Assembly (NCBI GenBank): GCA_945861405.1
Contig: CAMAUL010000001.1
Location: 1-64,000 of the forward strand
DNA length: 64,000 nucleotides
From: Candidatus Methylobacter oryzae
GTDB taxonomy: Bacteria > Pseudomonadota > Gammaproteobacteria > Methylococcales > Methylomonadaceae
Reading direction: 5' to 3'
The notes under the pieces are model-generated. The model was not told where the DNA came from and did not search any database. It was given only the letters and a program-made list of their open reading frames with translations. A program made the position numbers and the translations under genes. Positions within the stretch are counted from its first letter, which is position 1, and every line of letters starts with the position of its first letter. This document shows, one piece after another, positions 50,338 to 63,433 of this stretch.

Positions 50338-51323
50338 CATATCAAGCGCCCTCCCGTTCCACGCCCGATTCCCACCAGCGCAACAGCGAAAAGCTGGCAA
50401 AAATCCCGATCAAGGTGGAACCAGCCGGAACCACTTTGCGCAAGCCCGAATGGATACGCGTAAAAATATCGGCCAGCGACGAAGTCACCCGAATCAAGCA
50501 ACTGCTGCGCGAAAACAACCTGCATAGCGTTTGCGAAGAGGCCGCCTGCCCCAATATGGGCGAGTGTTTCCAGCACGGCACTGCCACCTTCATGATCATG
50601 GGCGATTTGTGCACCCGCCGCTGCCCTTTCTGCGATGTCGCGCACGGCAAACCGCTGGCGCTGGACAAAGACGAACCCCAACACTTGGCCGATGCGATAC
50701 AAGCCATGGCCTTAAAATACGTGGTCATCACCTCGGTAGACCGCGATGATTTAAGAGACGGCGGTGCCGGACATTTTGCCGAGTGCATCGAAAAAATCCG
50801 CCTGCAAACCCCCGCCACCAAAATAGAAATCCTGGTGCCCGACTTTCGCGGACGCATCGAAAAAGCCGTAGCCCTATTAGCCGAACAGCCCTGCGACGTA
50901 TTCAACCACAACCTGGAAACCGTCCCCCGGCTATACAAACAAGTGCGCCCCGGTTCCGACTACCAAGGCTCGCTGGATTTGCTGCGCCAATTCCACCAAG
51001 CCCGGCCGCAAACCCCCACCAAATCGGGCCTGATGCTCGGCGTAGGCGAACAGCCGGACGAAGTGCATCAAGTCATGAAAGATTTATTGGCCCACGGCTG
51101 CTCAATGCTGACCATAGGCCAATACCTGCAACCCAGCAAAGCCCATTTGCCGGTTCAAAGCTACATCACCCCTGAACAATTCGACGAATACGGCGCAGTT
51201 GCCAAAGCCTTAGGGTTCAAGCAAGTCGCCAGCGCGCCGATGGTTCGGTCGTCCTACCATGCAGATTTACAGGCTAAGGGTGTAATGCCCGACTGTGACA
51301 ATTCCAATGATAAATCGTACTGA
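50334..51323 (+). CDS. lipA: Lipoyl synthase, C-terminus extended by transposon end
   Basis: Radical [29 protein letters not shown] followed by CDNSNDKSY encoded by the transposon left end. Confidence 0.97.
51291..51295. repeat. Target-site duplication, left copy (GACTG)
   Basis: Identical 5-mer at 63429..63433 flanking the terminal inverted repeats. Confidence 0.9.
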
Positions 51324-51360
51324 ACATCGCTAATTTGTACCCTACATCGCTAAACGCTAC
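51296..51360 (+). repeat. Left end: terminal repeat plus ~20-bp spaced candidate TnsB sites
   Basis: AATGATAAATCGTAC, ACATCGCTAATTTGTAC, ACATCGCTAAACGCTAC with 20-bp periodicity. Confidence 0.8.
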
Positions 51361-51372
51361 TGAGTAACAATC

Positions 51373-53103
51373 ATGCGAAAAGCAATTCCAAAAATCAAAG
51401 AATTTCCAGATGATGGCCGCATCTGGCGAGTAGATTGGTTTGGCGGTGTAGAACGTAATCACATGGTTCCCACCGAACCTAAAATTCAGCTCATCATCAG
51501 CCCGCTACTGGACGGCGTAACAGATTACGCCGCCTCAAGCGCGGTCAATCACGAAGAGCGCCGTACAATCAGTATCGGTGTTGGCCAACTCCCTCTTGTC
51601 ACCATCGGATCGCTCTGGCTCAACCGTCACTGTCTTGTTGAGGCGGCGGGCAAAGATAAAATCTTCCATAACCTCACCATTTCGCCTGATACGGTTCGCT
51701 TAGTTAAGTCCGATGCCAAGGTAGACGGGCACCCTCTCATCCTCAAGCGCTTCCATCAAATCGGCGCAGGGCTTGCAGCAAACTGTCTAGCCATCAAATG
51801 GCGTGACGATCCCTACGGCATCATTGTACCTATTGCCGAGATTATCCGGTTTTACTATGCCACCTCTACCGACCTGGCTAAGGCCATCTTTGCAGGCGAC
51901 TTCCGTCACGACCTTGGCTCGATCGTGAACCCGGCTGAGTGTGCTTTCAACGAACAGGAAAAACGCTGTTTGCTCAAGCTGCGCAAGGAGTTTGCCGATG
52001 CAGACGCTTGGGTTATTGGCCGTATTCTGAACAGTCAGGAGGCATTTGCAGGGGCCACTCTTGTACATGATTCTATGATCAAGGAGGCTGTGCAAAACAA
52101 ACCTCGCTTATATCCTGAGGCCGCATTCCCTTTCAATGGCTCAACCAACCTGCGAGCACGGGTGAAGCCGATGCGAACGCCAGATGACAGCAACTGGCGT
52201 TATATAGTTTTTGCCCTGGAACATTGCACGGGGCCGTTTCCTTTTAATGCAATCACCTGCGATCGAGATAATAGCAACCTGCGCCCAGAAAAAGGCGAGG
52301 ATCTTCCAGACGATCAGAAAAAAACTGCATTCCCGGTCAAACAGGCTTCTGACAAGGTCATTACCGATGGGGAATTACAGAGTGATAACGAGCCTTCCAA
52401 CAATATGCAGTCAGCAGTTGTTACGCTGCCAGAGGATCGTTTTGGTGCATTGTCCAGCATGGAACTGGAAAAGCCAGAAAAGGAGATGTGCCATTACATT
52501 AACGCCGATACGGTTCGACCACTCGCTTTGCCAACAGATGTCCTCGGTACTGGTGATGGCACCTATTCGGATAACGGAGTGACCCCAACGGCAATGAAAA
52601 CTGAACGTGTGCGTCAGGCTCCGCTACCTGCCAGCTTCAAAAATTTCGAGGCGATGATACGGTATTTAGATGCGCTACCAGGATACCAGGCTGGAATCCG
52701 TCAGATAAAATATCCCATAGCACACATTCCTCTAACAAAGCCTAGTTGGACTAGACAATGGAGTTACCTGGATTCTGGACGGAAAATCAAGCGTGCAGTA
52801 GTAATCGCTGATGTAATTCATAAACAGCAAGTCTACAGTTTGATCGAATTTCAGTGGCGTGAAGGGGAATCGTTCAAACTTGCCTTGATGTCTTTACCCA
52901 GTGGCATGAGGATGAGTGACGAACTAATGAACAAATTACTCTATGTGCTGGCCAAGAAAAATGGACGCTGGGAAAATGCAACGCCACTACCTGCAGATAT
53001 TCGCCTAGCGGCGCTAAAACATACGTGGCCATATGTAGAAGCATACGCTGATGCTGTAATGTCAAAAATAAACACGGGAAATAGAAGCGAGGAACGAAGT
53101 TAA
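51373..53103 (+). CDS. Transposon-end protein, possibly TnsE-like
   Basis: 576 aa; position just inside the left end; C-terminal FKNFEAMIRYLDAL...RAVVIADVIHKQQVYSLIEFQWREGESFKLALMSLP resembles the layout of the Tn7 TnsE C-terminal domain from memory; not verified. Confidence 0.45.
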   Translation: MRKAIPKIKEFPDDGRIWRVDWFGGVERNHMVPTEPKIQLIISPLLDGVTDYAASSAVNHEERRTISIGVGQLPLVTIGSLWLNRHCLVEAAGKDKIFHNLTISPDTVRLVKSDAKVDGHPLILKRFHQIGAGLAANCLAIKWRDDPYGIIVPIAEIIRFYYATSTDLAKAIFAGDFRHDLGSIVNPAECAFNEQEKRCLLKLRKEFADADAWVIGRILNSQEAFAGATLVHDSMIKEAVQNKPRLYPEAAFPFNGSTNLRARVKPMRTPDDSNWRYIVFALEHCTGPFPFNAITCDRDNSNLRPEKGEDLPDDQKKTAFPVKQASDKVITDGELQSDNEPSNNMQSAVVTLPEDRFGALSSMELEKPEKEMCHYINADTVRPLALPTDVLGTGDGTYSDNGVTPTAMKTERVRQAPLPASFKNFEAMIRYLDALPGYQAGIRQIKYPIAHIPLTKPSWTRQWSYLDSGRKIKRAVVIADVIHKQQVYSLIEFQWREGESFKLALMSLPSGMRMSDELMNKLLYVLAKKNGRWENATPLPADIRLAALKHTWPYVEAYADAVMSKINTGNRSEERS

Positions 53104-53126
53104 ATTCAGCTTTATACTTATTGCTA

Positions 53127-54728
53127 CTAAAGCCTGTGTCGTCTGATTGAAAGCTTGTCCCGAATTCTTCGTAATTGCTCAATCTGCTCATAATTAATGT
53201 TTGGGAATGAACTCTTTAATATAAACTCATCATACTTTAAACAAATTTTTTCAATCGAGTCTTTATTATCAAAGCTCAGAGCAAACTTAGAAAACTGTGA
53301 ATTAGTTATTGATATATATGGAATCGGCAGCCCCTTAAACTCGCTTGGCGTTAGTTCTAATACACCTCCACCATAATAACGACCATGAAGCTCTGCAAAT
53401 GCCAACGTAAGCGAGTTATAGAATGAATGGATAATGCTATTTATGTCGAAACCGTCACGAGGAGTAACAAGATACGCGCTGTCAGTTGCTAAAGCAGTAG
53501 ATTCATTTTTAATGATTTTAGGATAATCATGGCATCTTTTAAAGAAAAGAGCAGGTGCTGGTGCGCCAATATTAGGAACCTGAAACCACAGTTTTCTGTT
53601 GCGCATTTTATATCGAAGATGTATTTGTCTAGAAGTACCTTCAATAAGATAATCTTGTAGAATTTTATTTTCCTCAACACCCTGTTCATTAAAATCCAAA
53701 AGGAAGCATGGAGTATCTATATCAGACAGAGCAGTTAATTTATTTTGACAAAAAATAACTCCCCCATTAATAACCGACGCTTTTTGAATTATTGGTTTTG
53801 CATACTTTAGCAATGATAATCTTTCTATTTCAGATTTACTGAGAATAAAGAAATCATTTGCGGCAGTAACTATCCCAGCCCTAGAAGAACACACATCATT
53901 TATTGTAGGCAGGTTCTTCGCTAATTGTTCAAGTAACCTACGTTCTGAAGAATTTAATGCATGACTGGTCCACTTTAATGAATCTAATGATTTATGATGA
54001 TTTAGTTTTAAACGAGAAGGGGATTTTTCTAAATCTTTAAGATTCTCAACATTACAAAAAAAAAGACCAGGTGCGGTTGATTTTTTCTCGGCTATCAAAA
54101 TTAAAGTATCTTGCCCCTTACACTCATGAAACAATAGCTCATTAAATGTAAAAACTTCTACTCGTTGAAATTGATTCAAAAGTAGTTCTCGAAGCTCTTT
54201 CGCATATTTAACCTGAAGCAATTCGGCTGGGAGCACTAAGGCTAGGACTCCATCATCAGCTAAAAGACTGATTGACCTGACTAGAAAGGCACTCCAGATA
54301 TTTTTTACAGTATTTTTAGACAGTTCTGGGTATGAGGCATGAATTTTTGCTGATAGTTCTATTTGCCTATTGCTAAGATAATTCCTTTTAATATAAGGAG
54401 GATTTCCAATGACTAAATTGAAATCAGAATCCATTAATTCAGATTGAAGCTCTAAAAAGTCATTGCAAATGACTTCAAGCTTATTAAGATCATTATCAGC
54501 TGAAATTTTCTCAGCTTCAGCTGCAGATATTTCTACAGCAAATAGCTTATCTATATTAGATTTTATTCGATCAGATATCGATAGTGCACGTATAAATACC
54601 CCGTCACCAGCACTCGGTTCAAGAATTTTAAGGGGTCTTCCATCTAACTTTCCTGCTACTCTTTTGACAACAAAATTAGCGATATAAGGCGGGGTATAGA
54701 AAGAGCCAGTATGTTTCTTTGGGCTCAT
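53127..54728 (-). CDS. N6-adenine DNA methyltransferase (Eco57I/TaqI-like class)
   Basis: GSFYTPPYIANFVVKR, ILEPSAGDGVFIRAL, NLVIGNPPYIKRN; C-terminal TRD-like region. Confidence 0.9.
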   Translation of the reverse strand: MSPKKHTGSFYTPPYIANFVVKRVAGKLDGRPLKILEPSAGDGVFIRALSISDRIKSNIDKLFAVEISAAEAEKISADNDLNKLEVICNDFLELQSELMDSDFNLVIGNPPYIKRNYLSNRQIELSAKIHASYPELSKNTVKNIWSAFLVRSISLLADDGVLALVLPAELLQVKYAKELRELLLNQFQRVEVFTFNELLFHECKGQDTLILIAEKKSTAPGLFFCNVENLKDLEKSPSRLKLNHHKSLDSLKWTSHALNSSERRLLEQLAKNLPTINDVCSSRAGIVTAANDFFILSKSEIERLSLLKYAKPIIQKASVINGGVIFCQNKLTALSDIDTPCFLLDFNEQGVEENKILQDYLIEGTSRQIHLRYKMRNRKLWFQVPNIGAPAPALFFKRCHDYPKIIKNESTALATDSAYLVTPRDGFDINSIIHSFYNSLTLAFAELHGRYYGGGVLELTPSEFKGLPIPYISITNSQFSKFALSFDNKDSIEKICLKYDEFILKSSFPNINYEQIEQLRRIRDKLSIRRHRL

Positions 54729-55306
54729 AGCTCCGTACCCAAATAATCAAAATAATTATTAAATTCACTATCCAAAAGTAGATATGCTTCCAAAAGCTCG
54801 ACTCTCTTTGGATGCTGCGAATGAATAGCTCCATTTAACAGCTCCCTGATTTCCGTTTTTTTTATGCGCAGTTGATCTAGCATCCATATCAAACCATACC
54901 GCCTCAGACCTAGTTTGAGTTTTTTATGCATATAACGCGCTTCTGCACTAGCAGATATTGGTTGTATATTGCCCTTATCGTCACGAAAGAAATGCTGATT
55001 AAAATCAGTATCGCAAGGATCCAAATACATTCCTTCATCATCACTCTTTTGTATGTTTACATAAGAACATGAATACACCAGATTTGAATATGACGTTACT
55101 AAATAAGGATGCTTGCTTTTAGATTTAAAGTGGTCAATATGAAAACACCTTTTCCCTCCAAACCAAATATCTGGACAATCGGTATAGCCACATCTATTAT
55201 TAAAATCGTTTCTCAGGAAATCTTTGTACCTTCTGTAGTCATTATAGGGATTACCGATAAATGTTCTCTGGGGAGTGGTTTCTCTAAATTCATATTTAAT
55301 TTGCAT
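54725..55306 (-). CDS. HNH endonuclease-like protein
   Basis: RCGYTDCPDIWFGGKRCFHIDHFKSKSKHPYLVTSYSNLVYSCSYVNIQKSD; overlaps MTase start by 4 nt. Confidence 0.75.
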   Translation of the reverse strand: MQIKYEFRETTPQRTFIGNPYNDYRRYKDFLRNDFNNRCGYTDCPDIWFGGKRCFHIDHFKSKSKHPYLVTSYSNLVYSCSYVNIQKSDDEGMYLDPCDTDFNQHFFRDDKGNIQPISASAEARYMHKKLKLGLRRYGLIWMLDQLRIKKTEIRELLNGAIHSQHPKRVELLEAYLLLDSEFNNYFDYLGTEL

Positions 55307-55985
55307 TCTTCACTTTCTCTAGAAGCTCATTAACTGAATTAATAAGGTTATTTAACTGTTCAGAATTCGAACTTTTCTTAAACTCTTCTGGAATAGCAGC
55401 AGTAGCATCAAGAGCGCGCTCCAAGAATGAATCAAGCCTTATTAGCTCATCCTCTTCTTTTAAACTAAGTTTATTTCCTTGACGTTTACGATCACACAAT
55501 TGCTCTAAGCTCTCTTCTGCTTCTGTGATGCGTGTTTTGTATTTTTGGATCTGCAGCAAAATTTTTTGGGGGAATGTAAGATGTTTGCCCTGATTATCCA
55601 AATGATTATCAATGTTTACATCCTTAGAGTACACCAAATTAACGTCTTTAATGGAAGTTGCTTCAGACGCATCTGAATCATAAGATGATGCTATGAAACA
55701 TGGAAAACCTTCTCTAATACGCAAGAATGCTTCGATTAAATCAGACCCATAATAAGAAACGTTATAACATCTTGGGAGGTCACTTTTAATTTCATTTAGA
55801 TTCCAATCTGAAACTAAAGCATCTGGATTTTCTTGACAAATATTATCAATCATTTCATCCAGATCTTCTGCAGGAAGCAACGTTATCACTTTCACCACAT
55901 CTGTTCGAATAAGATCAGCAAAAGCAGCTTTGAACTCATTCTGCTCTTCTATTTGTTCATCAACAAATATAATTTTATAAGGCAT
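55296..55985 (-). CDS. Receiver-domain-like protein
   Basis: YKIIFVDEQIEEQ (acidic pair), ALVSDWNLNE (candidate phospho-Asp), CFIASSYDSD, LVYSKDV (Lys); overlaps neighbours. Confidence 0.6.
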   Translation of the reverse strand: MPYKIIFVDEQIEEQNEFKAAFADLIRTDVVKVITLLPAEDLDEMIDNICQENPDALVSDWNLNEIKSDLPRCYNVSYYGSDLIEAFLRIREGFPCFIASSYDSDASEATSIKDVNLVYSKDVNIDNHLDNQGKHLTFPQKILLQIQKYKTRITEAEESLEQLCDRKRQGNKLSLKEEDELIRLDSFLERALDATAAIPEEFKKSSNSEQLNNLINSVNELLEKVKNAN

Positions 55986-58632
55986 TAGTAGCGTCCTTCA
56001 CTTTATATTTTGATGGAATAGAAATTCTAAGACCAAAACCACTCTCTTGATTATTATCCACATTAAATAAAAGTTTTATGTTTCCGTCATACTCATTGAC
56101 AACAGTTCTTACAATCCACATTCCCAATCCCGTACCAATTTCCTGTCCTGTATGATCACGTTTAGTTGTGTACATTGGATCAAATATAGTCTCTGGATTT
56201 AGAATATCTAGAGATATTCCAGGCCCATTATCTCGATACTCAATTAATATTTGGTTTCCAATTTCTTCGCATTTTATCAAAATTCTACGAGGTGCTCGCT
56301 TTATTGAAGGGCGTGTGAAAGCATCTAGAGAATTTGTTAACAAATTAACAAAGACGCTATCAAAATCAATCTCAAAAGCCCTAAGCTCAATATTAGTTGC
56401 ACAATCAACCGAAAACTCTATTCCTCGCTCAGACAAAGTACTAAGCCAACTTGATCTTAACTGCTGAAAATATGTTCCCAAAAATAGCTGTCTTCGTTTA
56501 CGTTTATCTTTTCGAGTAAATCCCAATGAGAAACCTAACCACGTTGAAATCTTTTTATCTGATTTCTTCATTTGATCTATATAGATAAAAGGATTTTCAT
56601 AATCCTCAACATCATCAAAACTCTCTTTAGTTACCTTCTGACTTAATAAATTTATGAGCTTATCTGACCTTGATTGGAGTTTCCCCTGCATTTTACTTAA
56701 ATCATGCCCCAAAGCTGCTGAGAGAATTCCACTGCTAGCCAACCCTCTTAAAAGTTTATGTTCACTTGTTAATTTTTCAATTGTTTCTTTTCTCGACTCA
56801 GCCAAATAAGCAAGGGCTAAAGCCTCTTGATTCTCAGTTGAACTTTGCTCATCATTAACTGACGAATCATCATTTTTGTTAGTCTGATTCTCCTTATTTT
56901 TCTGACGATTCCTTTTCAGAATAGATTGGGCTAATTTATCTGCCTTCTCAACATCTCTCACCGCACCGAATTTTTCATCATCATATTTTTTAAGCTCACT
57001 AGCTATAAAAGATCTATCTTCCTCAAATTTCGCTATTATTGCCGTAATTATCTGCTTGAATAATTGAAATGTCTGCGTTTCTTGCAGCCCCTCACGACTG
57101 GATTTATCGACGAACTCAAGGTTTGTTAAGCGAGAGATTTTAATCACTCCTGCTATATTCTCTGGCTCAACTCGATAACCACCTTCTGCTTTGGCGACAC
57201 CAGCAGGACTAGCAGCTTTCCTAGATCCTAGACCAAGCCAATCGAATGCAGGTTCATTTGCTTCCCCATATGGACGCACACGAAAATTATCTCGATACAT
57301 CTTTATACCACCAAGCTTACTTAACCACTCCTTGCGGGTATGTGACTTGATTGGCTTATAAAAGAATCTGGCAGAATCAACTGAATCCGTGGATTTCTTT
57401 AGAAAATAAAAAATAAACTCAAATGGGCCTATCTCGCTTAATAAACTATTGTCGTGATCACTTGGTATTAGCTGACTAAAGGTTAAGTGTTGACTATACT
57501 TCTTAGTTAAAAACGCAGATCTATTTGCGAAATTAGAGCTTTTAATCTTATCTCGCTCAAAAAAGTCATGTGGAATGAGAGATGTATCGTACTCCTCTCT
57601 CTCAATTGTAATTACCACATTTTGATCTAAGTCAGCTTTAGCCGTTAGCTTATAATCAAAATCATCACAAATTGAACTTAAGACTTCACCATAATCCTCA
57701 GGCTTCAAGCTAGAAATCATATGTATTGAAAACTCTTCTGTATCCCTAGGCGGCACTAAGACTTCCAAATCAGTAAAAATTTGCTTTACAAGATTATCAT
57801 TCCAAACATCATGTAACTTTGATATTTTTAAAATTGTACCTTGAGAAAACGTTTTATTTAATATGCTAGGGTGTAAGCCATTTATTTCTGAACTGCTACG
57901 CTCTTTTACTATTTTTGCTATGTCTACCAGATCGAATAAAGGATCAACTACACTTGAGTTCTCAATCAACCCACCAGACTGGATTATTTCGAGATTAGCT
58001 TCAACCTGACTAATAGTTATATTTTTCTTTTCGAAATCAGCCCAATTGACATGCCAAACAGCACCTATACCATCACTTTCCGATAAATTGCTATAGACTT
58101 CAGGATCTGCAATTGTAACCATTCGACATTCTCGCCCAAGTTTATCAAGAGCAAATCGACCAATACCTTTTGCGCCTGACTTTATTCGCTTGGAATGGGT
58201 CATAAAATCTTGTAATTTATTATCTGTACCAATAGTCATCCAATGTTTTTGAATGATTTCTTTGGTCATTCCATCCCCAGCATCAATTATGTATAAGACA
58301 ACTAGATCTCGTAGTCGTTTTTCAAATGCTTTAAATATCAATTGTCGAGACGAATTAATCAGCTCATATCTATCGCCCTTCGGCGCATACAGCCTCTTTA
58401 TGTAGTTCCAACTAATTCCTTTCTTTATCAGTTTATCTCGATTTTTAATCGTTAAGGACTTTGGAACTTCTGCGAATTCATTATCTATTCCAATGATGCA
58501 AAAAGGCGAATCAGCATCATAACAATTTTTGACAAGCTCAATAATTGCCCCTTTCGAATTTGCAATATTTTCCCGCCCAATTAGTATTGCTGCCCTTGCG
58601 GAGACAGTAAAAGGGATTTTAGTCATTATCAT
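55975..58632 (-). CDS. Large protein with N-terminal Hsp90/MORC-type GHKL ATPase and C-terminal histidine-kinase-type HATPase
   Basis: N-term AIIELVKNCYDAD, IIDAGDGMTKE, GAKGIGRFALDKLG; C-term ALGHDLSKM, FVNLLTNSLDAF, EYRDNGPGIS, TGLGMWIVRTVV. Confidence 0.85.
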   Translation of the reverse strand: MIMTKIPFTVSARAAILIGRENIANSKGAIIELVKNCYDADSPFCIIGIDNEFAEVPKSLTIKNRDKLIKKGISWNYIKRLYAPKGDRYELINSSRQLIFKAFEKRLRDLVVLYIIDAGDGMTKEIIQKHWMTIGTDNKLQDFMTHSKRIKSGAKGIGRFALDKLGRECRMVTIADPEVYSNLSESDGIGAVWHVNWADFEKKNITISQVEANLEIIQSGGLIENSSVVDPLFDLVDIAKIVKERSSSEINGLHPSILNKTFSQGTILKISKLHDVWNDNLVKQIFTDLEVLVPPRDTEEFSIHMISSLKPEDYGEVLSSICDDFDYKLTAKADLDQNVVITIEREEYDTSLIPHDFFERDKIKSSNFANRSAFLTKKYSQHLTFSQLIPSDHDNSLLSEIGPFEFIFYFLKKSTDSVDSARFFYKPIKSHTRKEWLSKLGGIKMYRDNFRVRPYGEANEPAFDWLGLGSRKAASPAGVAKAEGGYRVEPENIAGVIKISRLTNLEFVDKSSREGLQETQTFQLFKQIITAIIAKFEEDRSFIASELKKYDDEKFGAVRDVEKADKLAQSILKRNRQKNKENQTNKNDDSSVNDEQSSTENQEALALAYLAESRKETIEKLTSEHKLLRGLASSGILSAALGHDLSKMQGKLQSRSDKLINLLSQKVTKESFDDVEDYENPFIYIDQMKKSDKKISTWLGFSLGFTRKDKRKRRQLFLGTYFQQLRSSWLSTLSERGIEFSVDCATNIELRAFEIDFDSVFVNLLTNSLDAFTRPSIKRAPRRILIKCEEIGNQILIEYRDNGPGISLDILNPETIFDPMYTTKRDHTGQEIGTGLGMWIVRTVVNEYDGNIKLLFNVDNNQESGFGLRISIPSKYKVKDATNAL

Positions 58633-58861
58633 TTCCAGATGAGGTTGGCTTCAATACATACCATTGTTAAGTCACGCACATCCAATTGTTCTAGTTATGA
58701 TATCGACTAGTTGTGTGCTTGGACATGTTCTCTTCTATGAGCGAGTTAATTCATTTACTCAGTCATTATAATTATTTATGCACTTACTCCCTAGTTCATT
58801 CTGTAAACAGAATCGAAGGCAAATCCATAGCACTTCGCGAAGTCGGAGACGTTCCTAAGGC

Positions 58862-59914
58862 TTAGTCACCACTAATTAGTCGCTTAACTTCAGCGAGATA
58901 CCACTCTGGTGCTGCGTCAAAATCTTTCCCAAGCACGTTGTAACGTACAACTTTATACTTCCAGGCCGCTCGAAGACGAGAAGGCCAACGACTGATCAGC
59001 CACCAGGAGAGTCCCAGAACATGATGCCGTTCTTTAAGCGGTCGTAGTTCGAAGGCTATATGCCCTTTGACCAGAGGAATTGATGATTGGTTAGTTCTTT
59101 CCTGGACATACGCCATCAGTTTGGGCGCACGCCTCATTGAGACCATCAAAGTACAGAATTGATGTAATACAACAAGCTTGGAATAATCGAAATCCGCCGA
59201 GTCAACGCCCCCCCTATCAATCAAACGCAAGGCTCTGCTCCAAGATAAAAACGTGCGGTCATTCCACCTATTTACCGGCACGGCTGGAGCACTGCACAGA
59301 TCAAACCAACAAAACCAGCAACACTGTAACGACGGCCCATCAATTAAATCAGGCTTGCCCAGTTCAAGCCTATGAAACACAACACCATTGCCGCAGCTTG
59401 GGCAACGATCCCACAACATCACATCATGCTTGGAACAAAAAGTATAAAGCGCTACACGCCATGATCTGCGATAGTAAGGTTCAAATCCCTCTGCCAAGCA
59501 CTTTGGACAAAATTGGAGGCCGAATCCTCGCCGTTTCCGGTGGTATATCTGTAACGGCAGTATCCAACGCAACTGCCCGGCCGGATGGTACTTGTCGTAT
59601 AGTTTCCCCTCGTAACCTAACAACGTTGTTTCCCACGCCCGGTTGATTGGCGTACCTGTTTTCTTGCTCATGCTTTCAATTAACCAAGCTGGAGCCAAGC
59701 GATCTATATCACGATTCCAAAGCTCATGGTCGTTACCAAATTCCTGGGCACAGAAGGTTTGAACCTTGAGTCCATTCGCATGCGCCACCCGCACCAGCCA
59801 CGACGACAATAACTCATCACGGTAAGGATGGGGATGCGCTGGCCACAACTCGCCAGAAAGCATGCTCAACCGCCTCGATCTATTTGTCGCTTGCGATCGG
59901 ATGGTGATACCCAA
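58862..59914 (-). CDS. tniQ: TniQ/TnsD-family target selector
   Basis: PHPYRDELLSSWLVRVAHANGL; zinc-binding FCPKCLAE...YRRSWRVALYTFCSKHDVMLWDRCPSCG. Confidence 0.9.
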   Translation of the reverse strand: MGITIRSQATNRSRRLSMLSGELWPAHPHPYRDELLSSWLVRVAHANGLKVQTFCAQEFGNDHELWNRDIDRLAPAWLIESMSKKTGTPINRAWETTLLGYEGKLYDKYHPAGQLRWILPLQIYHRKRRGFGLQFCPKCLAEGFEPYYRRSWRVALYTFCSKHDVMLWDRCPSCGNGVVFHRLELGKPDLIDGPSLQCCWFCWFDLCSAPAVPVNRWNDRTFLSWSRALRLIDRGGVDSADFDYSKLVVLHQFCTLMVSMRRAPKLMAYVQERTNQSSIPLVKGHIAFELRPLKERHHVLGLSWWLISRWPSRLRAAWKYKVVRYNVLGKDFDAAPEWYLAEVKRLISGD

Positions 59915-60753
59915 TCAATAGCATTTAGAATTTTCTCGTCAATGCGCTCCTTTCCAGACTCAACTGCGTATGCACCAGCCATATTCAGTAAGCGCGACAA
60001 CTCGCCGATATAACCTTCGGACATCGAGAACAATTTGGTGGACAAGGTCGTATCGTGTAATAAAGATGGTTCGCGCAGAGGCAGCATGCGTTCAAAGCTC
60101 GCAAGCAAGCGCAGAAAATCGGTATCGAACTCCCATCGCGGCAACAGCACTGGTTCGAAACGATTGGCCAGTTGTGAATCGGTCTGGAGAGCACGAAAAG
60201 CATCCCGCGTTCCCACCGTCACGATTGGCACCTGCAATTCGTTGCCCAGATACTTAAGCACGTTTAAAAACGTACGCTGCTTGTTCAAGTTACCTGCCAT
60301 GATGTGGTGGATCTCGTCGATCACCAACATACGCAGGCCAACGTATTTCAACAGCTTGATGACCTGGAATTGCTTTCTGTCCACCCGGTCGTTTGGTTTG
60401 TAAGGCGCAAATAACAGCTCAAGGATGGCATTGTAAAAACGGCCTTCATCCGGAATAGGCGGAGCCTGCACGAAGAGCACCGGTACGCGCACGCCATCGC
60501 CACTGGGATTATTGTCAGCTGGGTGGAGAGCGCAGAATCGCTGCACCAACATGGTTTTGCCGTTATTGGTATCCCCAACTACCAGCATGTTAGGCATCCG
60601 ATGTGAGCGGGGATAGACCAACAAATCTTCCAACTTGGCCAAGACGACCTTGGCCCTTGGATAACCGATCCAGCGGGGAGATCGAATCTTTTCAATTCTT
60701 TCTGCATTGCTCAATTCCAACTGCTTAGCTGCCGAGTCGTTCAAGTGGCTCAC
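59866..60753 (-). CDS. tnsC: TnsC/TniB-like AAA ATPase
   Basis: Walker A VVGDTNNGKTMLVQRF; Walker B MLVIDEIHHI. Confidence 0.93.
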   Translation of the reverse strand: MSHLNDSAAKQLELSNAERIEKIRSPRWIGYPRAKVVLAKLEDLLVYPRSHRMPNMLVVGDTNNGKTMLVQRFCALHPADNNPSGDGVRVPVLFVQAPPIPDEGRFYNAILELLFAPYKPNDRVDRKQFQVIKLLKYVGLRMLVIDEIHHIMAGNLNKQRTFLNVLKYLGNELQVPIVTVGTRDAFRALQTDSQLANRFEPVLLPRWEFDTDFLRLLASFERMLPLREPSLLHDTTLSTKLFSMSEGYIGELSRLLNMAGAYAVESGKERIDEKILNAIDWVSPSDRKRQIDRGG

Positions 60754-62642
60754 GTCAAGTCATCCATTTCGTCGAAAGGCTGAATGGCAGGTGTCGTGAT
60801 CGGTACCGATGCCGATGCCGATGCCGGTGCTGGCTCAGATTTGTCCAAGGCTTGAGTGACACTTGGGCGAATTGCCTCTTGCCCAAATTTACGGCGTTGA
60901 GCTGTCCGTCGAACCGCTACGGTCTTGGCTTGGGAACTCTGCTCAATTTCGCGCATCCGCCCGTAAGCATCAAAGATCGTCCGTTCATCAACATGCCTAC
61001 GGCCATCTGCTTCAATCTGGCGTTTTGCTTCTCGAAGCTCCCAAATACTGATCGGCGGGTGGGATGTATTCCGGTATGGCACTGGGTAATAGATATTGAC
61101 CTCGGGATCATAAAACCAAATGGTGCTGATATCGCGCGGGTCACGCCGGAACATAAATTTACGCTTGTATTTTGAGGCCGCCGGATCTGGAGCATTGATC
61201 CATCGCCGCAAAACATCGTGGTAGTAGTGGATTTCGTCGATCACCACACCATAGTCCTGAATCGTTCGCTCTTCGAATGGCATCAAATCGAGTCGCAAAC
61301 GATCCTCGTCCATAACCCGTGTGGGCAGCCCTCGCCCCGGCATATCCTTAGTACCAAACACGCCTTGCCGGTACTTTTCCAATGGAGGCATGTTAATGCC
61401 CGAATGGAGACGCTGGTGATAGACGTTTACGATAAAAATCACAAACCATTCCTCAAACTCTGTCAGGGTCAGAGCCGCCTTGGCTTCGGAATCATAATCG
61501 CCGCGCTCACGCGGGTTAGAAAACGTGGTGCCAGGCAACGTATGGATTTCTTGAGCAAATGAGCCAAGTAAACGTTCAATATGTCCACCGAAGTGTGGCC
61601 GGGCTACCGGACGCCATTCGATATCAATACCATACTCCAAGCAAGCACGCTGAAGCATGTTGCCACGAAATTCGCGGGCATTATCCATGTGCAGTTTTCC
61701 TGGCATACCCCAGCAGGGCCAATCACCCTTGATATCATGTTTTGTTAGCCAGACATTTTTTGGCAAAATTGCATTTGCCAGACATTGGCCCGCAGATAAA
61801 GCACCTGGAGGATCGAACGACACGTAGAACCCAGCGACCATCCTACTGAAAACATCAATTGCCAGAGTAATCCAAGGCTTGCCTACCGGCCGTCGATAGA
61901 CGTCATCTACTAGAATAATATCTAGTGGCGTGTGATCGATCTGCAACACTGCGAATGGCCAATCAGCGCCCGGAAACTTCCCTTCGACAGGCGAGTAAGC
62001 TTGGTCGGCCGCTTTCCAGCCTTTGCGCTTGGCCATTACAAATTCGTCAGCTAACGCCTTGAGGCGGTTGCGTACCGTATTGTTATGCGGAGGATTGATG
62101 CCCGCATTAACACAGCGCCGCCGAATTTCGTCACAAACTTTTTGTTGGGACTTGCGCTGCTTGGTTAGATAGTCGCTTCCGACCACGGCCTGAATGATAG
62201 TTTCAACTTCAGTCGTCAGCTTGGTTGCACCCTTATCGCTTCTGCTGCGAGGTAGTAGCGACGTGAGCAACCCGGTAGCTTCATAACGTCGAATCCAGTC
62301 ATAGAGCGTGTTTTCATGGCGTTCGAATGCTTTAGCCCGCGCAACGACATCCTGCCGACTGCGATTTGGCATATCAAGTAAAGGTCGAATGATCTCGAAA
62401 TGCTTAGTTGCTTCTTCCCACGCCTCATCTGGAACCAAGACCAGATCCGGCCTGCCTTCCGGTGGTGCAACAACCTCTGCTGGAGCGAGATCGCCTACTT
62501 TGGCGTGACTAACTTGCCGAGTCTCATCATCCACAACAAGCACTTCATTTAGATCGATAACGTGAGTAATCCTGTGCAAGCGATCTCGATAAAGAACTGC
62601 AACACCAGGCTGAAGCTGCAACAGCTGATGTGATACGTTCAT
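60750..62642 (-). CDS. tnsB: TnsB/TniA-like DDE transposase
   Basis: rve core LQIDHTPLDIILVDD, KLHMDNAREFRG, GGHIERLLG. Confidence 0.95.
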   Translation of the reverse strand: MNVSHQLLQLQPGVAVLYRDRLHRITHVIDLNEVLVVDDETRQVSHAKVGDLAPAEVVAPPEGRPDLVLVPDEAWEEATKHFEIIRPLLDMPNRSRQDVVARAKAFERHENTLYDWIRRYEATGLLTSLLPRSRSDKGATKLTTEVETIIQAVVGSDYLTKQRKSQQKVCDEIRRRCVNAGINPPHNNTVRNRLKALADEFVMAKRKGWKAADQAYSPVEGKFPGADWPFAVLQIDHTPLDIILVDDVYRRPVGKPWITLAIDVFSRMVAGFYVSFDPPGALSAGQCLANAILPKNVWLTKHDIKGDWPCWGMPGKLHMDNAREFRGNMLQRACLEYGIDIEWRPVARPHFGGHIERLLGSFAQEIHTLPGTTFSNPRERGDYDSEAKAALTLTEFEEWFVIFIVNVYHQRLHSGINMPPLEKYRQGVFGTKDMPGRGLPTRVMDEDRLRLDLMPFEERTIQDYGVVIDEIHYYHDVLRRWINAPDPAASKYKRKFMFRRDPRDISTIWFYDPEVNIYYPVPYRNTSHPPISIWELREAKRQIEADGRRHVDERTIFDAYGRMREIEQSSQAKTVAVRRTAQRRKFGQEAIRPSVTQALDKSEPAPASASASVPITTPAIQPFDEMDDLT

Positions 62643-63292
62643 TTGTGCAAGCTCCAAATTGGACTATTCATGGTGAGCTTGGTATCCATGTCAAACCCTA
62701 TTTGCCGAGTTCCTACCATATACCAAAGTGATGGCAATAACCTTGCTTGGTTCCATTCGTCTTGAAATATCCTACCAAGTAATTCCGCAGGGATTGTATT
62801 CCGTACCTGTCGCATCTGCTCATCCAGCATATCCATGTGTGCTTCTTCGGCTGGCCCTTGTCTGACAAAAGAAAGTAGGAATTTCGCATTCTCCAGATAA
62901 GGCGTACGGATTTCCACTTCAGTGATTATCTTAAACCGCCATCCATGAGAACGAGCGAATTTTACTGCTGCGCGAAATTTGGGCCGTAGCTCAGACCAAT
63001 GCTGCGCCAGTTCGGAACGGTATTTAACCTCGTACAGCACCTTGCTGCGATGATCATGCAGTTTGAAGGTAGCAAGGGCATCAGGCGTATAACCATGCGC
63101 ACCACCCGCACCATCAATCCAACTCACAACCAATGGTTGAACTTCGAACGTTTCAATAGCAGGATCAAATTCCAGTAAAGTGATAAAGTCACGTTCCAGC
63201 GTTGATTCGAACATTGCTTGGCCTTCGGCCTTGCGGTGTGCCGCGATACCGGTCACGTTGCGATAGTTCTTGGGAATTTTGCGCACGGGCAT
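62639..63292 (-). CDS. tnsA: TnsA-like endonuclease
   Basis: MFESTLERDFITLLEFDPAIETFEVQPLVVSW...YTPDALATF...VLYEVKYRSEL. Confidence 0.92.
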   Translation of the reverse strand: MPVRKIPKNYRNVTGIAAHRKAEGQAMFESTLERDFITLLEFDPAIETFEVQPLVVSWIDGAGGAHGYTPDALATFKLHDHRSKVLYEVKYRSELAQHWSELRPKFRAAVKFARSHGWRFKIITEVEIRTPYLENAKFLLSFVRQGPAEEAHMDMLDEQMRQVRNTIPAELLGRIFQDEWNQARLLPSLWYMVGTRQIGFDMDTKLTMNSPIWSLHK

Positions 63293-63403
63293 GTCATACC
63301 TCACTCAGTACACTATAGCACTGTAAAATGCATTCTAGTACGAAAGATCGGTGTATGCCAATAGCGTTGATCGATGTAAAAAGTGAAGGATAATCGCTCA
63401 TTG

Positions 63404-63428
63404 GTACAATTTAGCGTTGGAATTCACA
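63404..63428 (-). repeat. Right-end terminal inverted repeat
   Basis: GTACAATTTAGCGTTGGAATTCACA; revcomp matches left end at 20/25 positions. Confidence 0.92.
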
Positions 63429-63433
63429 GACTG
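63429..63433. repeat. Target-site duplication, right copy (GACTG)
   Basis: Identical to 51291..51295. Confidence 0.9.

Follow-up and report, generated by a model that had tools for sequence, protein, structure and literature searches.

A candidate restriction-modification cassette with a kinase-receiver pair on a Tn7-like element of Candidatus Methylobacter oryzae

Why would a histidine kinase and a receiver protein be encoded in one operon with a nuclease and a DNA methyltransferase, as the cargo of a transposon? This question is raised by a four-gene cassette in a stretch of 64,000 nucleotides of Candidatus Methylobacter oryzae DNA (GenBank assembly GCA_945861405.1, contig CAMAUL010000001.1, positions 1 to 64,000; the whole stretch is called the window here). 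The answer that we favour, with somewhat more confidence than doubt, is that the cassette is a self-contained restriction-modification (R-M) system with a phosphorelay switch, carried on a Tn7-like element. The cassette consists of the following genes.

55975 to 58632, minus strand: dual-GHKL protein, 885 amino acids (Pfam and PDB fold matches)
55296 to 55985, minus strand: stand-alone receiver protein, 229 amino acids (family alignment, PF00072 in relatives, PDB response regulators)
54725 to 55306, minus strand: PtuB-like HNH nuclease, 193 amino acids (PADLOC and fold match)
53127 to 54728, minus strand: N6-adenine DNA methyltransferase of the Eco57I/M.Eco57I_C type, 533 amino acids (Pfam; PADLOC MTase_II, 2.7e-136)

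The original prediction, made from the DNA alone, described four overlapping minus-strand genes, and all four open reading frames (ORFs) are indeed intact, with successive overlaps of 11, 11, and 4 bp. When the window proteins were scanned against Pfam, PADLOC, and NCBIfam, the two GHKL modules that had been claimed for the first gene were recovered as HATPase_c_3 (1.6e-8) and HATPase_c (1e-16). The 885-amino-acid product is a soluble protein that begins with a MORC-like ATPase module, followed by a long helix, a DHp domain with the phospho-acceptor H643 (codon 56704-56706), and a C-terminal kinase domain. In a PDB fold search, the C-terminal half of its AlphaFold model (mean predicted local distance difference test score, pLDDT, of 84) resembled ZraS, HK853, and other sensor kinases, and the model matched the MORC2 fold over a long alignment (2.2e-9); the input alignments of the structure models were built without the proteins of the plasmid collection. 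HATPase_c_3 was found in all 58 aligned kinases of the family, in which H643, N763, N767, G803, G833, G835, and G837 of the kinase half and D117, G119, G121, G153, G156, and G158 of the N-terminal module are invariant and E32 of the latter is kept in 57.

The second gene had been read as that of a receiver, an assignment that its relatives bear out: the window protein on its own matches no Pfam family, PF00072 is matched by 51 of the 84 family members, and response regulators of solved structure in the PDB are among the matches of the family profile. The phospho-acceptor D60 (codon 55806-55808) is invariant in all 84 receivers, positions 9 and 10 (D9/E10) are acidic throughout, only T or S occurs at position 100, and K121 is a lysine in 83. 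At the level of residues, the kinase thus has N, G1, and G2 boxes and a phospho-accepting histidine, and the receiver has a D-D-T-K site. No DNA-binding output domain was found among the Pfam matches of the receiver family, and because no such output is recognised, a phosphorylated receiver would most likely work via protein contact; the HNH protein encoded beside it would be the obvious target.

The remaining two assignments also hold. The HNH protein is similar to PtuB in PADLOC (1e-12), and the best PDB fold for its AlphaFold model (pLDDT 96) is retron PtuB (E 7e-4, probability 1.00). Residues H59 (codon 55130-55132), N75, N84, and K87 are invariant in 83 HNH proteins. The putative structural-zinc cysteines at positions 42 and 83 are both kept in 50 of these proteins, and in the other 33, the window protein (T42, V83) included, C42 is replaced by T or S together with C83 by V or I. 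This loss is always paired, a mixed state was never seen among the 83, most of the proteins concerned have an additional cysteine at position 44, and the replacement took about four changes on the kinase tree. It would appear that the zinc site was lost while the active site was kept, and not that the protein decayed. We reject a degenerate HNH protein in the window in view of the pairing of the cysteine losses, their occurrence in 33 of the 83 proteins, and the intact catalytic residues. The fourth gene product, predicted to be an N6-methyladenine (m6A) methyltransferase, has Pfam matches to Eco57I, M.Eco57I_C, and N6_Mtase and an NPPY motif at 54393-54404.

The original prediction had staked itself on conservation of this gene neighbourhood, which was examined by starting from plasmid homologues and then running an alignment of the large protein over species-representative genomes. 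A total of 453 relatives were found there, the best 80 of which were kept, and five virus-classified contigs were added via the kinase alignment. Gene sets were called by profile searches of the locus ORFs, and loci running off contig ends (L009, L034, L036, L053, and L058) were not counted. The full four-gene set is present at 82 of the 86 homologous loci with enough flanking DNA, a count that includes near-duplicates (L064-L066) and is not one of 82 independent events. The methyltransferase gene lies downstream in 77 of the complete loci and upstream in 5, and junctions of at most 20 bp separate kinase and receiver in 81 of 82, receiver and HNH in 82 of 82, and HNH and methyltransferase in 69 of 77. 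Among the incomplete loci, L004 has a split kinase ORF and a different methyltransferase, and in L050 the kinase is cut off beside what appears by eye to be an IS21-type gene pair. When the HNH profile was run over 297 genomes from the phylum to which the Cytophagales genome G328 belongs, four new loci were recovered in addition to that of G328, the chosen centre, and at all four, found independently through HNH, the kinase, receiver, HNH, and methyltransferase genes follow in order. Together with the 82 complete loci, these four lead us to reject a chance gene order, and the lack of co-conservation that would have refuted the original prediction was not observed.

The cassette is uncommon, occurring in about 1% of those 297 genomes, and the window copy is the sole one among 299 genomes of its own phylum. 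Among the bacterial hosts on record are Bacteroidota, Alpha- and Gammaproteobacteria, Campylobacterota, Deinococcus, Paenibacillus, Niallia, and Verrucomicrobia, and the archaeon Methanolobus is also a host. No near match to the cassette of Enterobacter RIT418 was found among complete E. coli genomes, a receiver-only scan of viral contigs returned no match, and annotated phage records gave only weak kinase matches.

Within the conserved set, the proteins differ in how they diverge. Kinase, receiver, and HNH co-diverge: taken pairwise over 78 complete sets, their distances correlate with one another (rho 0.59-0.72), whereas those of the methyltransferase correlate with the other three at just 0.19-0.24. 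Six sequence classes of methyltransferase occur in the family, those scanned being Eco57I/N6-type enzymes, and the class switches 13 times on the kinase tree (FastTree, with a few rows on long branches), with at least 11 switches forced for the main class. Between the window and L011, for example, the kinases are 53% identical and the methyltransferases 16%. Because it is almost constantly present, repeatedly changes class, and is only weakly correlated in distance with its partners, the methyltransferase seems to be needed yet exchangeable, and kinase, receiver, and nuclease seem to form the fixed unit.

How might such a set work? In the scheme that we propose, the m6A methyltransferase would mark host DNA, and the MORC-like ATPase module, which occupies the usual place of a sensor domain, would work as a clamp, binding DNA or a complex and sensing DNA that is unmarked (invading), either directly or via the methyltransferase; candidate signals are unmethylated DNA, the methyltransferase on DNA, and nucleotides. 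The histidine-kinase half would autophosphorylate at H643, and the phosphate would pass on to D60 in the receiver, which by protein contact would release or activate the PtuB-like HNH nuclease, and the activated nuclease would cut DNA. We infer the gating of the nuclease by His-Asp phosphotransfer, self-marking by the methyltransferase, and anti-phage action, as well as the signal sensed and the target cleaved. For the family as a whole, we tentatively suggest a widespread, unnamed R-M family where cytosolic His-Asp phosphotransfer would license cleavage and a kinase-receiver-nuclease core, whose own sequence specificity is not fixed, would depend on an exchangeable m6A methyltransferase to tell self from non-self.

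Several observations weigh against an R-M system of this kind. Locus L035 has no receiver, and L048 has kinase, receiver, and nuclease without a linked methyltransferase; two methyltransferases examined elsewhere in the L048 genome are not close kin of the usual ones. The HNH proteins of the window clade lack two of the four zinc cysteines. In the commonest methyltransferase class, variability in the specificity-domain region does not exceed that in the catalytic part; a hypervariable specificity domain is rejected for this class, as the excess variability was not seen, and for the same reason we do not claim target diversification inside it. As a separate observation on L048, the next gene where the linked methyltransferase is absent lies on the opposite strand and encodes a 1215-amino-acid caspase-domain protein (L048:12971-16618).

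The main rival explanation, which we consider unlikely, is abortive infection, in which the kinase and receiver would sense infection, the PtuB-like nuclease would attack host nucleic acid, and the cell would die. Infection might be sensed, for example, as a missing methyltransferase, as altered DNA, or through nucleotide levels; the methyltransferase would be a guarded protein or a host protector instead of a sequence-matched partner. The likeness of the nuclease to PtuB and retron effectors in both sequence and fold fits this explanation, as does the survival of L048 without a linked methyltransferase, and a guard model allows unrelated methyltransferase classes to be interchanged over the same nuclease. 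However, an active-looking DNA methyltransferase is nearly always there (82/86), as DNA-directed restriction needs, and PtuA, the usual partner of PtuB, is absent from the cassette. It is far less probable that the kinase chemistry goes unused, with both GHKL modules forming an ATP-driven DNA clamp and the receiver serving as a structural adaptor. The MORC2 fold match of the large protein and the ATP-driven looping of DNA proposed for paraMORCs in R-M operons (PMC2292703) would suit a clamp, but all 58 kinases have the phospho-acceptor histidine and all 84 receivers have Asp60, and the catalytic residues that surround both are invariant or nearly so. Least probable of all is ordinary two-component control of the transcription of a neighbouring HNH/methyltransferase R-M pair, as the canonical active sites of kinase and receiver would permit, since no DNA-binding output domain is recognised in the receiver, a MORC-like module is part of the kinase, the genes form a single operon with overlapping ends, and the three non-methyltransferase proteins co-diverge.

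Is the R-M system with a phosphorelay switch that we favour a new one? The four-gene family matched no named PADLOC system and reached no NCBIfam cut-off, the window kinase and receiver had no PADLOC match, and no named system with this gene set was found in the open-access literature. Generic REase_II models in PADLOC were matched by some kinases of the family, and an unnamed HATPase + REC prediction of DefensePredictor could be a relative. The original prediction of an unnamed system stands to this extent, but the idea of a dual-GHKL kinase and a receiver joined to R-M genes had been published in 2021 (PMC8011034), and the concept, preceded by those R-M-linked pairs and by the paraMORCs of 2008, is not wholly new.

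In the 2021 study, HEF_HK kinases were found to adjoin Response_reg_2 receivers near R-M genes, mostly of the 5-methylcytosine (m5C) type, and a regulatory role was suggested for the pairs (Bellieny-Rabelo et al. 2021, PMC8011034). The window family is like them in its kinase of HATPase_c_3, DHp, and HATPase_c, its adjacent receiver-like gene, and its R-M neighbourhood. It is unlike them in its fixed PtuB-like HNH and Eco57I-type m6A methyltransferase, where the 2021 pairs have mostly m5C methyltransferases, Vsr, and mixed nucleases, and in the length of its receivers, about 220 amino acids versus 555 and 617 in the two Response_reg_2 proteins compared. PF19191 (HEF_HK) matched none of the 58 family kinases at E ≤ 0.1, in a run without a positive control for that model. 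PF19192 (Response_reg_2), a model that does find members elsewhere, did not match the window receiver and does not appear in the list of the 25 most frequent families of the 84 members. No later test of the pairs predicted in 2021 was found in the literature. ParaMORCs likewise have an N-terminal MORC-like GHKL module and sit in R-M operons, sometimes with HNH, with a proposed role in ATP-driven DNA looping; in the window family, the large protein also has a complete histidine-kinase half and is accompanied by a receiver, and a receiver is not mentioned in the text of the paraMORC paper (Iyer et al. 2008, PMC2292703).

The cassette is also related to Septu and retron-Ec78 through the fold and sequence of the PtuB nuclease. 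Unlike those systems, it has no reverse transcriptase, its partners are a kinase, a receiver, and a methyltransferase, and in place of the ABC-type ATPase PtuA, for which no ABC/SMC ATPase gene was found in the cassette, there is a GHKL kinase. With Type II-like R-M systems it shares the linkage of a DNA methyltransferase and a nuclease (82 of 86 loci). Kinase/receiver logic in phage defence is known from Detocs. The Detocs effector is a purine nucleoside phosphorylase (PNP; PMC10952713), whereas that of the cassette would be a PtuB-like HNH protein together with a DNA methyltransferase, and no PNP domain was found by Pfam in the four genes.

What does the setting of the cassette add? Its status as Tn7-like cargo, also claimed originally, is confirmed by TnsA, TnsB, TniB, and TniQ genes at 58862-63304, by inverted ends, and by a perfect 5-bp target duplication. 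The features of the element are as follows.

51291 to 51295: left copy of the 5-bp target-site duplication GACTG, spanning the lipA stop codon (GAC TGA)
51296 to 63428: whole Tn7-like element, 12,133 bp, with inverted ends TGACAATTCCAA / TGTGAATTCCAA and internal repeats
51373 to 53103, plus strand: 576-amino-acid protein
58862 to 59914, minus strand: TniQ target selector (PF06527, 3e-31)
59866 to 60753, minus strand: TniB/TnsC AAA ATPase (PF05621, 5e-77)
60750 to 62657, minus strand: TnsB transposase
62639 to 63304, minus strand: TnsA endonuclease (PF08722, 1.2e-16)
63429 to 63433: right copy of the target-site duplication GACTG

The four-gene cassette is the only recognised cargo of this element. 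The insertion lies exactly at the stop codon of lipA, the lipoyl synthase gene (51291-51323), which stays open because the left end of the element brings replacement codons and a new stop. The empty site CCCGACTGACG is seen in the sister genomes G002 and G009; lipA adjoins the right-hand neighbour gene, with the element absent, in G018, G002, and G022, and in G009 an uninterrupted lipA end is followed by the right flank. Because G007, G008, and G021 share the left end of the element at lipA, this gene looks like the attachment site of the transposon family.

In two of these genomes, G007 and G008, which belong to the same genus, sister elements at lipA carry other cargo, and their Tns/Tni genes are 87-99.7% identical to those of the window. 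The 576-amino-acid protein, which matches nothing in Pfam, NCBIfam, PADLOC, or the PDB, is present in them as well, and because it is about 91-92% identical between elements with different cargo, it is probably an unrecognised core gene of the transposon family. The G007 element (L141:10067-17599) carries DndBCDE, a GHKL ATPase that is MzaB-like in PADLOC, and a small unassigned protein. The G008 element (L140:2286-7525) carries a dual-GHKL kinase, a 311-amino-acid receiver-like protein with a long C-terminal region, and an m5C methyltransferase, without a separate nuclease gene. A set of this type was also seen on Campylobacter plasmids (L007:4971-9424), where a dual-GHKL kinase, distantly related to the window kinase family, accompanies a 340-amino-acid response-regulator-like protein and a dcm-type m5C methyltransferase. 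Both sets combine a dual-GHKL kinase, a receiver, and a methyltransferase, as the window set does, and that of G008 does so in the same transposon slot; however, their kinases are distant (about 24% identity), their receivers are longer, their methyltransferases are of the m5C type, and neither has a PtuB-like HNH. As sister elements use the slot for DNA-modification systems, this association supports a defence role for the window set.

If phosphotransfer does gate the nuclease, two-component chemistry would serve as a direct on-switch for DNA restriction and not for transcription, and the R-M-linked kinase/receiver pairs predicted in 2021 would gain a testable function. With methyltransferases repeatedly exchanged while kinase, receiver, and nuclease stay together, it becomes a sharp question which part of the cassette recognises foreign DNA, and the sister transposons, with their swapped modification-type cargo, provide a natural comparison set.

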